In this document: piece by piece, positions 27,854-32,245 of the stretch
Numbering within the stretch: the first letter of the stretch is position 1
Layout: the number at the start of each line of letters is the position of its first letter
Source: Bacteroidales bacterium
GTDB taxonomy: Bacteria; Bacteroidota; Bacteroidia; Bacteroidales; JAIPAP01
Assembly: GCA_021740045.1 (NCBI GenBank)
Contig: JAIPAP010000013.1
Span: 1-48,546 of the forward strand
Length of the DNA stretch: 48,546 bases
Direction: 5' to 3'
The notes under the pieces: model-generated
What the model was told of the DNA's origin: nothing
The model's database searches: none
The model's input: the letters and a program-made list of their open reading frames with translations, nothing else
Translations under genes and position numbers: made by a program

Positions 27854-28150
27854 TTAATCTTTGGGTTTTTTCATAATGGCAAAGATCTCAACCACATATC
27901 CTGCCAGAATCAAGATGGGCGCCACTGTAATTCGTCGATGATTGAATATGGCTTCATTGAATTCATTGGGGTTATCGGAACCGCCACCGATCATCAACAG
28001 GAATCCCACTGAAATTAATGCCAGTCCGATAAGCAGGAGCTTGTAATTCTCCCGGTTAAAGGCAAAGTCCTTGCCCGACTCTTGAGAAGCCTTCTCCTTT
28101 TGCGATTGCTGAGTTTGATGAGGCTTATGTTTATGCTTTGCTTTTTCCAT
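27854..28150 (-). CDS. DUF3098 small membrane protein
   Basis: A 98-residue protein with two membrane helices (YKLLLIGLALISVGFLLMIGG and a second ending AGYVVEIFAIM) separated by a conserved loop DNPNEFNEAIFNHRRIT. This is the DUF3098 pattern of Bacteroidota. The N-terminal 40 residues are Lys/His/Gln-rich. The frame is open to 28174, but ATG 28150 (MEKAKHKHK) has a GGAA-type ribosome site and avoids crowding ftsX. It consistently occurs between ftsX and uppP in the phylum (established knowledge), so a role linked to division or wall synthesis is inferred. Function unknown. Confidence 0.85.
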   Translation of the reverse strand: MEKAKHKHKPHQTQQSQKEKASQESGKDFAFNRENYKLLLIGLALISVGFLLMIGGGSDNPNEFNEAIFNHRRITVAPILILAGYVVEIFAIMKKPKD

Positions 28151-28187
28151 ATTTTTCCAAGCGATTTTGTGCAAATATATAAATCCT

Positions 28188-29063
28188 TTAGTACAAATAA
28201 TCGGTTTTTACCCTCAAGAACTTCCTAACAGCCATAAAGGTGGAAAACCATGAAATGATAATACCTATAAGTATTACCGATCCAAAAAGCGTGAGAAAAA
28301 GATCGAGGTCCTGCAGTTCGATCAATTCGGGTATTTCGCGGCGGGCGAGATAAAGCGTGCCAACTAATAGCAGTATGGCAAAAAACGATCCGTAAAGCCC
28401 ATGTAAGATGCCCTGCCAAACAAAAGGCCTCCTGATAAACCGTTCGGTTGCTCCAACTAGTTGCATGGTTTTTATAAGAAAACGTTTCGAATAAACCGAT
28501 AGTCGTATCGTATTATTGATCAATGCAATAGCTATGATCAGCAATAAAACACTAAACCCCAGAATAATGATGCTAAGCTTGCGGATATTGTCATTGACAA
28601 CATGCACCAATGATTTCTGATAATCAACTTCTTTTACCGTCTCATGAGCCACCAATTCATTTTTGATCTGCTCAAGACTATCCACATTGGCATATTGAGC
28701 TTTCAGCCTCACATCAATGGAAGGCAATAAAGGGTTATATCCGATAAAATCGATAAAATCCTCTCCTAATTCCGCTTTAAGCTCGCTGGCTGCTTCTTCT
28801 TTGGTAATGTATTCGGTGCTTTTTACATAATCGGTTATGTCGAGCTCTTTCTGAAACCTGATAATCCTTGCCTCTTTAGTGTTTTCTTTCATGATGATAT
28901 GAAAACCAATGTTTTCCTTCACATAATCGGAGATCTTTTTGGCATGCAGCACGATCAATCCCAGCAGGCCCAACATGAAAAGCACCAGGGTAATGCTGAT
29001 CACCGTGGTAAGATATGATGTCTTAAGCCTTCGGCGGTTATATTTTTCTTCCTTTTTATTCAT
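28188..29063 (-). CDS. ftsX: Cell division ABC permease FtsX
   Basis: A 291-residue permease-like protein. It has a cytoplasmic N-terminus, first membrane helix near 20-42 (TVISITLVLFMLGLLGLIVL), an extracytoplasmic domain of about 120 residues and three C-terminal helices in the FtsX-domain pattern (LINNTIRLSVYSKRFLIKTMQLVGAT, then RRPFVWQGILHGLYGS). With FtsE it regulates peptidoglycan hydrolases at the division site. ftsE is not adjacent, which is normal in Bacteroidota. It heads the minus-strand group ftsX-DUF3098-uppP-truB. Confidence 0.94.
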   Translation of the reverse strand: MNKKEEKYNRRRLKTSYLTTVISITLVLFMLGLLGLIVLHAKKISDYVKENIGFHIIMKENTKEARIIRFQKELDITDYVKSTEYITKEEAASELKAELGEDFIDFIGYNPLLPSIDVRLKAQYANVDSLEQIKNELVAHETVKEVDYQKSLVHVVNDNIRKLSIIILGFSVLLLIIAIALINNTIRLSVYSKRFLIKTMQLVGATERFIRRPFVWQGILHGLYGSFFAILLLVGTLYLARREIPELIELQDLDLFLTLFGSVILIGIIISWFSTFMAVRKFLRVKTDYLY

Positions 29064-29140
29064 AGTCAGCGGCTACGAAATTATAAAAAATATACGCTCA
29101 GAAGGAGGAGATGTTTTATTTGATAATAATGCAATCTGAT

Positions 29141-29306
29141 TAATACCTAAGTTGAGCGATTTGAATGCAGTGAAAAATCGCTTTACTTAGGTATAATCCC
29201 GTCCCGAAGGTTTTCGGGATAGAAATTGTTGCTTTTCACCGAATGGGTGAGGTGAAAAGCTTACAATTTCTTTATCGTGAGCGAGAATCGCTCAATTTGG
29301 GTAATA
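29141..29306. mobile_element. MITE-like palindromic element with terminal inverted repeats and 5-bp flanking duplication
   Basis: A 166-bp non-coding element between ftsX and leuS. Its ends are 21-bp inverted repeats with three mismatches (29141-29161 TAATACCTAAGTTGAGCGATT and 29286-29306). It is flanked by an exact 5-bp direct repeat, CTGAT at 29136-29140 and 29307-29311. The inside is almost entirely hairpins: 29144-29193, 29202-29219 (TCCCGAA/TTCGGGA), 29221-29271 (arms AGAAATTGTTGCTTTTCACC and partner, one bulge) and 29278-29294 (TGAGCGA/TCGCTCA). It has no open reading frame. The structure is that of a miniature inverted-repeat transposable element moved by a transposase encoded elsewhere. 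A dispersed palindromic repeat is the alternative. Confidence 0.72.
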
Positions 29307-29431
29307 CTGATGCTTATTCGCCAAATCCACAGCAATCTCCCGGAAATATTCTTACTAAGTTTCTTAAATTCGCAAGCTGAAAAATTTTACGTGGAGATAA
29401 TAGTTATCAATAGCAAAGTATAAGGCGCATC

Positions 29432-32245
29432 ATGGAATACAACTTCAGGGAAATCGAAAAGAAATGGCAGAACTACTGGCTGGAGAAAAAATCCTTCAAA
29501 GTAGGGATCGATCATCAAAAACCCAAATATTACGTTTTGGATATGTTTCCGTATCCCTCAGGAGCCGGATTGCATGTAGGCCACCCACTGGGTTACATTG
29601 CTTCCGATATTTTTTCACGTTATAAGCGGCTCAAGGGTTACAATGTGCTTCACCCTATGGGCTATGATGCTTATGGCCTGCCGGCTGAGCAGTATGCCAT
29701 ACAAACCGGACAGCACCCTGCCATCACCACTGAGCGCAATATTAAACGCTACCGCGAGCAGCTCGATCAAATCGGTTTTTCTTATGACTGGGACCGTGAA
29801 GTACGCACCTGTGACCCCGTGTATTATAAATGGACGCAATGGACATTCATCCAGCTGTTTCATTCATGGTTTAATAACCACCTTCAAGCGGCCGAACCCA
29901 TTAACACCCTGATTGAAGAATTTGAGAAAAATGGAAATACCAAGGTAAATGCAGCCTGCGGTGAGATTGATAAATTTACAGCCGAAAATTGGAACAGCTG
30001 GGATGAAAAACAACAGCAGGAGACCCTGATGTATTACCGGCTGGCTTACCTCTCGGACACATGGGTGAACTGGTGCCCGGAACTGGGAACCGTTTTGGCT
30101 AATGATGAAGTTAAAGAGGGCTACTCGGTACGTGGAGGTCATCCGGTGGTCAGAAAATTGATGAAACAATGGTCATTGCGTGTTACGGCTTATGCCGAGC
30201 GCTTGTTACAAGGGCTGGAAGAAGTCGATTGGTCCGAATCGCTCAAGGAGATCCAGCGTAACTGGATTGGTAAGTCAGAAGGAGCTTCGGTAAACTTTAA
30301 GGTGAGCCATCATGAGGAAGAAATAGAAGTATTCACTACACGCCCCGACACCTTGTTTGGAGCCACCTTTATGGTATTGGCGCCCGAGCATGAAATGGTT
30401 GAAAAGATCACCAAGCCCGAGCACCGCGAAAAAGTTGACGAATACGTTAAAATGGCCAAAAACCGCTCCGAGCGCGAACGTATGGCCGAGGTCAAAAAGA
30501 TCACCGGGGAATTTACCGGCGCTTATGCCATCAATCCGCTGAGCAATGAGGAAATTCCCATATGGGTGGCCGATTATGTACTGGCCGGATACGGAACCGG
30601 CGCCATCATGGCCGTTCCGGCACACGATAGCCGCGATTATGCCTTTGCCAATCATTTTAATATTCCTATCCGTGAAGTTGTTTCCGGTGGGGATATTTCC
30701 AGGGGATCATACGATGCCAAAGAAGGAACCCTTATTAACTCCGGTTTTCTTAACGGCATGGATGTTAGTAAGGCTATCAAGGCGACTATCGATAAAATTG
30801 AAGAATTGGGTGTAGGTTACGGGACGGTAAACTTCCGCTTGCGCGACGCCATCTTTAGCCGCCAGCGCTACTGGGGAGAGCCGTTTCCCATTTATTACAA
30901 GGATGGCATCCCTTATGCCCTTAGTGAAGACAAACTTCCGTTGGAGCTTCCCGAAGTGGAATCCTTCCTGCCCACCGAAACAGGTGAACCGCCACTGGCA
31001 AGGGCCAAGAATTGGGAAACGGAGGAAGGCTACCCACTTGAAACCAACACCATGCCTGGCTTCGCCGGATCGAGCGGCTATTACCTAAGGTACATGGACC
31101 CCCGCAACGATAAGGAATATTTCTCCAAAGAAGCTATCGAATACTGGCGGGATGTGGATCTTTATATCGGCGGTATAGAACACGCCACCGGGCATCTTAT
31201 GTATGCCCGCTTCTGGAATAAATTTCTGTATGATCTGGGCTACGTGGTGGAAGAGGAGCCTTTCAAAAAACTGGTGAACCAAGGCATGATACAGGGGCGT
31301 TCAAATATTGTTTACCGCCTTAAAGGCACCAACACTTTTATCTCGAAAAACCGGCTGGATACGGACTTGACCGATGAGGAGATGAAAAAAGCCGGTGTAA
31401 GCGAGCGTCGCCCCGAAGTAATTCCCATGCATGCTGATGTAAATATTGTAGACAACGATGTGCTCGACACCGCGGCCTTTCGAAACTGGCGTCAGGACCT
31501 GGCGGAGGCACAATTCATCCTTGATGATGAAGGCAAATATGTTTGCGGTTATGAGATCGAAAAGATGTCAAAATCGCTTTATAATGTGGTTAATCCCGAT
31601 GACCTGATCGCCAACTTCGGAGCCGACACCCTGCGTATGTACGAGATGTTCCTGGGCCCGCTTACCGATTCCAAACCCTGGGACACTAAAGGGATTGAAG
31701 GTGTATATCGGTTCATTCGCAAGTTCTGGAGACTCTATCATGACAATAACGGAAATCTGAATGTAACGGAGGAAGAGCCCACAAAGGAAGAGTTTAAGGT
31801 GCTTCATAAAACCATCCAAAAGGTGGAGGATGACATCGAGCGGCTTTCGTTCAATACAGCGGTGAGCGCTTTTATGATCTGTGCCAATGAGCTCTCCGAT
31901 CTGAAATGCACCAAACGGGCTATCTTAGAGCCTTTAGCGGTATTGATCTCACCTTATGCCCCGCATATTGCCGAGGAACTCTGGCATAAGCTCGGTCACC
32001 GGCCCAGCGTGGCTTACGCCGAATTTCCGGAGTTCAAAAAAGAATATGTGATCGAAAACACCTTTAACTATCCGGTTTCCTTTAACGGCAAAAAGCGGTT
32101 TGAACTCGAGCTTCCCCTTGATATGCCCAAAGAGGAAATAGAAAAGGCAGTGCTCGAGGCCCCCGAGGCACAAAAGTGGATCGAGGGAAAAACCCCGAAA
32201 AAGATCATCATTGTTCCCAAACGCATTATCAATGTGGTGGTTTAG
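29432..32245 (+). CDS. leuS: Leucyl-tRNA synthetase
   Basis: A 937-residue class Ia synthetase charging tRNA-Leu. The HIGH motif appears as HVGH in [16 protein letters not shown]. The CP1 editing domain (about 280-480) includes [19 protein letters not shown] and [16 protein letters not shown], needed to clear mischarged isoleucine and norvaline. The KMSKS loop is intact ([15 protein letters not shown]). The anticodon-binding domain follows, and the C-terminal domain ends PKRIINVVV. Length is normal. It begins 125 bp downstream of the MITE-like element, whose palindromes may affect its leader or promoter. Confidence 0.98.

Follow-up and report, generated by a model that had tools for sequence, protein, structure and literature searches.

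MITEs that carry the ends of an IS are an already familiar class. MITECca01 in Cardinium has IS982-type ends (PMC9769881), MITE239, MITE464, MITE700, and BrickBuilt of Porphyromonas gingivalis have IS5-type ends (PMC4596501), and MITEPye1 of Paracoccus yeei, which has IS1182-type ends and direct repeats, is predicted to fold into a stem-loop (PMC11578231). All of them are short and non-coding and bear repeats at their termini that resemble those of a full IS. A further type are the Tn3-derived miniature elements (TIMEs) with 38-bp Tn3-type ends, which are usually single copy and show 5-6-bp duplications and a predicted secondary structure (PMC4133298). Among complete elements, the IS1380 family (NCBIfam NF033539; IS1247, ISPme1, ISEcp1) has to be considered, for which IS1247 with its 16/13-bp IR and 5-bp DR is an example (PMC3281130).

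The window analyzed here is the whole stretch of 48,546 nucleotides that forms contig C156 of a Bacteroidales genome of 3.90 Mb in 161 contigs (G000). Its genes ftsX (28188-29063, minus strand) and leuS (29432-32245, plus strand), which had been named from the sequence alone and were borne out by Pfam, are divergent, and the gap between them contains a non-coding element of 156 bp with IS1380-type ends (29146-29301, plus strand). The element shares its general build with the MITEs mentioned above, but differs from them in the type of its ends and in its interior, where hairpins follow one another and some modules are optional. It resembles the TIMEs in its duplication and predicted secondary structure, whereas these have 38-bp Tn3-type ends and mostly occur as single copies. 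With the IS1380 family it has in common 16-bp repeats starting with CC and a 5-bp duplication, and a transposase of this family is encoded in an element with near-identical ends (L187). Unlike IS1380 elements, it is only 156 bp long, codes for nothing and has little in common with them past the termini. In a limited search of the open-access literature, no description of an IS1380-type MITE was found. Judged by sequence comparison, the element very probably belongs to a MITE family dispersed over the genome, and a DDE transposase of the IS1380 family, provided in trans, would recognize its ends. The sequence-only reading had called it MITE-like, which is supported by the multicopy spread, the target duplications, and the IS1380-family ends.

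The borders 29146 and 29301 were fixed by comparison of the copies. Inverted ends of 21 bp with 18 matching positions, bounded by CTGAT as target duplication, had been proposed before. The count holds, but the outer five bases (TAATA) are themselves the target duplication, so that the true terminal inverted repeat (TIR) is 16 bp long with 14 matching positions. Its left copy CCTAAGTTGAGCGATT (29146-29161, plus strand) and its right copy CCCAAATTGAGCGATT (29286-29301, read on the minus strand) were both identified by the TIR pattern search, and the left one can be compared with the end CCTAAATTGAGCGATT present on both sides of the IS1380-family element. The two copies of TAATA are located at 29141-29145 and 29302-29306. 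The CTGAT pair is real, but lies one step outside this duplication; of the 25 two-ended copies that were compared in the own genome, the window copy alone has an exact 5-bp flanking repeat at this offset (5). Immediately next to the ends (offset 0), an exact repeat of 5 bp flanks 18 of these 25 copies (1.06 on average and at most 6 with shuffled flanks), seven lack an exact duplication, and at offsets 1-4 and 6-10 none of them has an exact flanking repeat. The 18 exact duplications prefer the form T-N-N-N-A, with T in the first position in 16 and A in the last position in 16. The 25 copies are a curated set, which leaves out 46-bp sub-pairs, a second pairing in L008, the degenerate pairs L079 and L082 as well as one-ended and contig-end copies. 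When all retrieved loci are taken together, an exact duplication is present at 56 of 83 end pairs (shuffled mean 4.26, maximum 12), a count lowered by several spurious inner pairs, as the 83 rows include the 46-bp sub-pairs within the full copies L007, L011, L032, and L105, the second L008 pairing, L079 and L082. An IS1380-family transposase would have placed the element at a TAATA site in the gap of ftsX and leuS, and this insertion would have left the TAATA duplication on both sides.

A BLAST search of the own genome resulted in at least 48 matches, with 40 of 66 candidates scored. Among the matches listed, 20 cover at least 150 of the 176 query bases with 69-100% identity. With up to two mismatches, the TIR pattern was found 46 times in forward and 45 times in reverse orientation, compared to 6 and 2 times for the reversed control, and some of the hits fall on the inner arm of the left hairpin, which is TIR-like. 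The search for further copies, which the sequence-only reading had recommended, therefore yielded many dispersed ones with target duplications. None of 24 copies in the own genome lies wholly within an ORF of at least 80 aa, and five overlap one at its edge. They are located in tandem (13), divergent (6), and convergent (3) gaps, two being undetermined; since the copies occupy all gap types, the divergent position of the window copy is not typical.

Related MITEs are present in 8 of 393 sampled genomes of the order Bacteroidales (7 of 206 genera), the own genome included. An exact pattern search over the GTDB contigs gave 53 stretches, of which 40 belong to Salinivirgaceae MAG14 (JAEINW) and 10 to GH44 (JAQICA); these matches and the order sample are not independent, as G359 is GH44 and G250 is C17_metabat.bin.6, with identical leuS coordinates. 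The records with an exact match to a part of the element are MAGs titled Salinivirgaceae, Marinilabiliaceae, or Bacteroidales. The exact 20-base pattern had no match in the IMG/VR viral contigs, and the plasmid and phage searches gave no match to the element.

In the genome G013, a longer repeated element has the end CCTAAATTGAGCGATT, and several contigs begin at a distance of about 120 bp from it. Traced across the order, this end is present in 7 of the 393 genomes, and a complete IS of 1,741 bp was identified in another Bacteroidales genome, G052 (L187, 136-1876). This IS has identical 16-bp ends, a TTGAA duplication on both sides, and codes for a transposase of 462 aa, which matches Pfam PF13701 with 73.4 bits and the NCBIfam IS1380 model with 181.4 bits, barely over the cut-off of 180. 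The MITE end CC[T/C]AA[G/A]TTGAGCGATT and the IS end CCTAAATTGAGCGATT differ by one mismatch per end. Target duplications of the IS1380 family range from 4 to 5 bp. Both the near-identical ends and the 5-bp duplication associate the MITE with this family. The two elements are alike at the termini and in little else, and the interior of the MITE is, as judged by eye, not evidently derived from the IS.

The 462-aa transposase was searched in 18 genome entries (16 distinct genomes), of which five matched, G303, G168, and G328 with fragments only. In G393, which is rich in MITE copies, a transposase with 61-63% identity is interrupted by a stop and spread over two frames; this broken copy has one perfect end, three mismatches in the other one and the flanks TTCTC/TTTTT without a duplication. 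In G328, a C-terminal piece of the transposase adjoins the same IS end. A tblastn search over the loci collected at that stage detected no more than the G052 element and a piece of 23 aa in L179, and no transposase was seen in the ORF lists of L178-L180. The own assembly has no match for PF13701 or for the 462-aa transposase, but this absence is not certain, because the assembly is divided into 161 contigs; a lone remnant of the IS end (117 bp, 84% identical) is located at C119:8439-8555. A transposase with the same ends, as suggested for verification earlier, was hence found as an IS1380-family IS in other genomes of the order, but not in the own assembly. Because the parent IS was not found there, the copies of the own genome may be immobile, unless the transposase is hidden in assembly gaps or is re-introduced.

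Two DDE_Tnp_1 matches in the own genome were set aside as transposase source. The one in C6 (8473-8916) is located far from the only TIR-pattern hits of this contig (160-205), and the one in C161 is under the family cut-off. A 2.9-kb stretch in C129 was rejected as autonomous element, as no transposase was seen and its flanks TAAAA and TATAA differ. It corresponds to L070 1061-3948 (G000:C129), where a peptidase M14 gene separates the two halves of a MITE by 2.9 kb and the flanks TAAAA and TATAA differ by one mismatch. That it represents a mobile gene cassette with MITE ends is possible but unproven. In addition, a short MITE-like palindrome was observed in L185 from position 1471 (G168), in which two IS1380-type end-A sequences seem, by eye, to stand face to face. 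It may represent another, separate miniature form derived from this IS group.

Four internal hairpins had been described for the window copy, and four were found, all on the plus strand. The left hairpin (29146-29191, 46 bp) is based on the fold, the TIR pattern, and the copy alignment, and its inner arm (29176-29191) is TIR-like; the pairing of this subterminal arm with the left end, noticed before, is borne out by the fold. It is followed by an optional hairpin module (29202-29219), seen in the alignment of 30 copies and in genome-wide palindrome counts, by the central hairpin (29221-29271), which is kept with paired base changes in helices 2 and 3 of the covariation test, and by the right hairpin (29278-29294), which was identified by fold and covariation and overlaps the right terminal repeat. 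The fold energy is -47 kcal/mol compared to -14.5 ± 2.9 for shuffled sequences (z -11.2), and none of 200 shuffles equals it. An Rfam scan of 28000-30500 gave no match at the gathering score and two weak matches. As already stated in the sequence-only reading, no ORF covers the 156 bp in the ORF list, which starts at 80 aa, so a transposase gene of that size is absent from the short element.

The alignment consists of 30 copies (28 distinct), which were hand-picked for diversity from the two-ended copies in eight genomes. In its consensus structure, 96.7% of the cells are paired. Eleven pairs are changed on both sides, compared to 4.5 in shuffles and at most 3 with slid partners, and 37 cells are changed on both sides, compared to 7.1 in shuffles and at most 7 with slid partners. 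Since the paired changes exceed both controls, the palindromes are evidently maintained. It is possible, though somewhat doubtful, that selection for structure, either for RNA stability or for recognition in transposition, and not a mutation bias is the reason, which would be compatible with a MITE; the 37 two-sided cells against 7.1 and the high proportion of paired cells fit with this. However, template switching between palindrome arms can produce and preserve hairpins without selection (PMC8794818), and could explain the paired changes as well as selection does. In L011, which is outside the alignment, a change of two bases has made the inner arm perfectly complementary to the TIR; this looks like a template-switch event, and such an arm occurs in none of the 30 aligned copies. 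The excess of G-T over A-C mismatches that selection at the RNA level would produce is small and not significant, with 17 types of the former and 9 of the latter (p 0.17).

The form common to several genomes has a length of 140-142 bp. The window copy contains an additional 18-bp palindrome, TCCCGAAGGTTTTCGGGA, in the junction past the left hairpin, which is the optional module missing in the 141-bp form. In other copies, different palindromes occupy the left-hairpin loop, the junctions or the central loop, and they vary from genome to genome, with CCCGA...TCGGG in the own genome and GCCTG...CAGGC in G343. Palindromes of the type CCCGA-N2..10-TCGGG, MITE-borne ones included, were counted 121 times in the own genome compared to 25 in the control. 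Some stand-alone ones sit, by eye, within other hairpins, clearly in L207 and L212, less so in L205 and L208, as if they preferentially entered palindromes. Two copies near contig ends, L015 (G000:C52:32680-32912) and L026 (G000:C155:48273-48558), are broken in or beside a small palindrome, and both run on into the identical foreign sequence TTCAGCCATTTTTCAGGGGC..., possibly the terminus of a different IS that has inserted into the hairpin. Furthermore, a second MITE subfamily of 161-162 bp with the left end CCTAATTTGAGC was observed in L236 1318-1479 (G343:C189), L162, and L163. The L236 copy has a TAATA duplication of its own and is located 21 bp upstream of leuS.

Shorter forms also occur. 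Two 31-bp copies with the duplications TATAA and GTTTA consist of the fused right and left ends with 0 and 1 mismatch, and a 46-bp copy with a TATCA duplication is a right end fused to the left hairpin (2-4 mismatches). G343 has a 46-bp form with a TTAAA duplication, and solo hairpins of 46 bp similar to the left one are represented by L028 and L167. At the 31-bp junction, a 6-bp direct repeat is present in comparison with L001 and L002, and no repeat in comparison with L009 and L012. At the junction of the 46-bp copy with TATCA, a 7-bp direct repeat was found in three of four comparisons and one of 3 bp in the remaining one. As a repeat of 6-7 bp is present in 7 of the 12 junction comparisons, the simplest reading is a deletion between short direct repeats, before or after insertion. 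A more far-reaching explanation, which we consider unlikely, is that of a modular hairpin element, the loops and junctions of which, like those of other hairpins, are repeatedly entered by host-specific palindromes, while basal deletions give two-ended and maybe mobile 46- and 31-bp forms. If true, there would have to be a second mini-element that seeks palindromes, and the short forms would be among the smallest known transposable units.

It is very improbable that the element is a fixed regulatory structure, in which RNA hairpins or a cruciform control ftsX and/or leuS. The position between the divergent genes, with 82 bp to the start of ftsX and 130 bp to that of leuS, as well as a fold far better than that of the shuffles would fit with such a role, but the element recurs at numerous unrelated sites, whatever the arrangement of the flanking genes. 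The proposed influence of the folding on the neighboring genes is also unsupported: promoter-like sites are at the chance level (one found, 1.1 expected), no terminator-like site was found, and a search of the gap for the Bacteroidota-type promoter pair of a -7 box and TTG, which allowed one mismatch in the former and a spacing of 17-23 bp but required TTG itself to be exact, gave no hit. A single genomic copy kept at this locus in relatives had been named as the finding that would speak against a MITE. Besides the many copies, two relatives keep the ftsX/leuS pair without element ends in the gap: leuS was located in 30 genome entries (28 distinct genomes), and ftsX was seen divergent in the flanks of G116 and G250. 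Both are distant relatives (about 70% leuS identity) and not exact empty sites; the search for relatives yielded no genome from the same genus or family. Their gaps are 374 bp (G116) and 196 bp (G250) long, while the window gap minus the element has 207 bp. In global alignments, the G250 gap scores 95.5 against the joined empty site and 69.0 against the filled one, whereas the longer G116 gap scores 155.5 against the filled and 63.5 against the empty site. As these scores are split, the absence of the ends alone was used. As far as comparison of sequences goes, the insertion at ftsX/leuS is most likely neutral. That the element is a REP sequence, mobilized by an IS200-like transposase of the RAYT type, is extremely unlikely, although it is palindromic, short, intergenic, high-copy, and contains nested small palindromes. 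Two inverted ends with a 5-bp duplication fit a DDE transposase, while RAYT/IS200-like enzymes are not known to make a target duplication, which strongly disfavors them.

The reading as a dispersed MITE family with IS1380-type ends links repeats that are scattered in the genomes of uncultured Bacteroidales with a family of transposases. The exact ends together with the target preference T-N-N-N-A can be used for the annotation of such repeats. Moreover, the graded copies from 31 to about 190 bp, many of them with kept duplications, form a series for studies of MITE erosion and palindrome mutation. To the class of MITEs with IS ends, the IS1380-ended family adds a new example.
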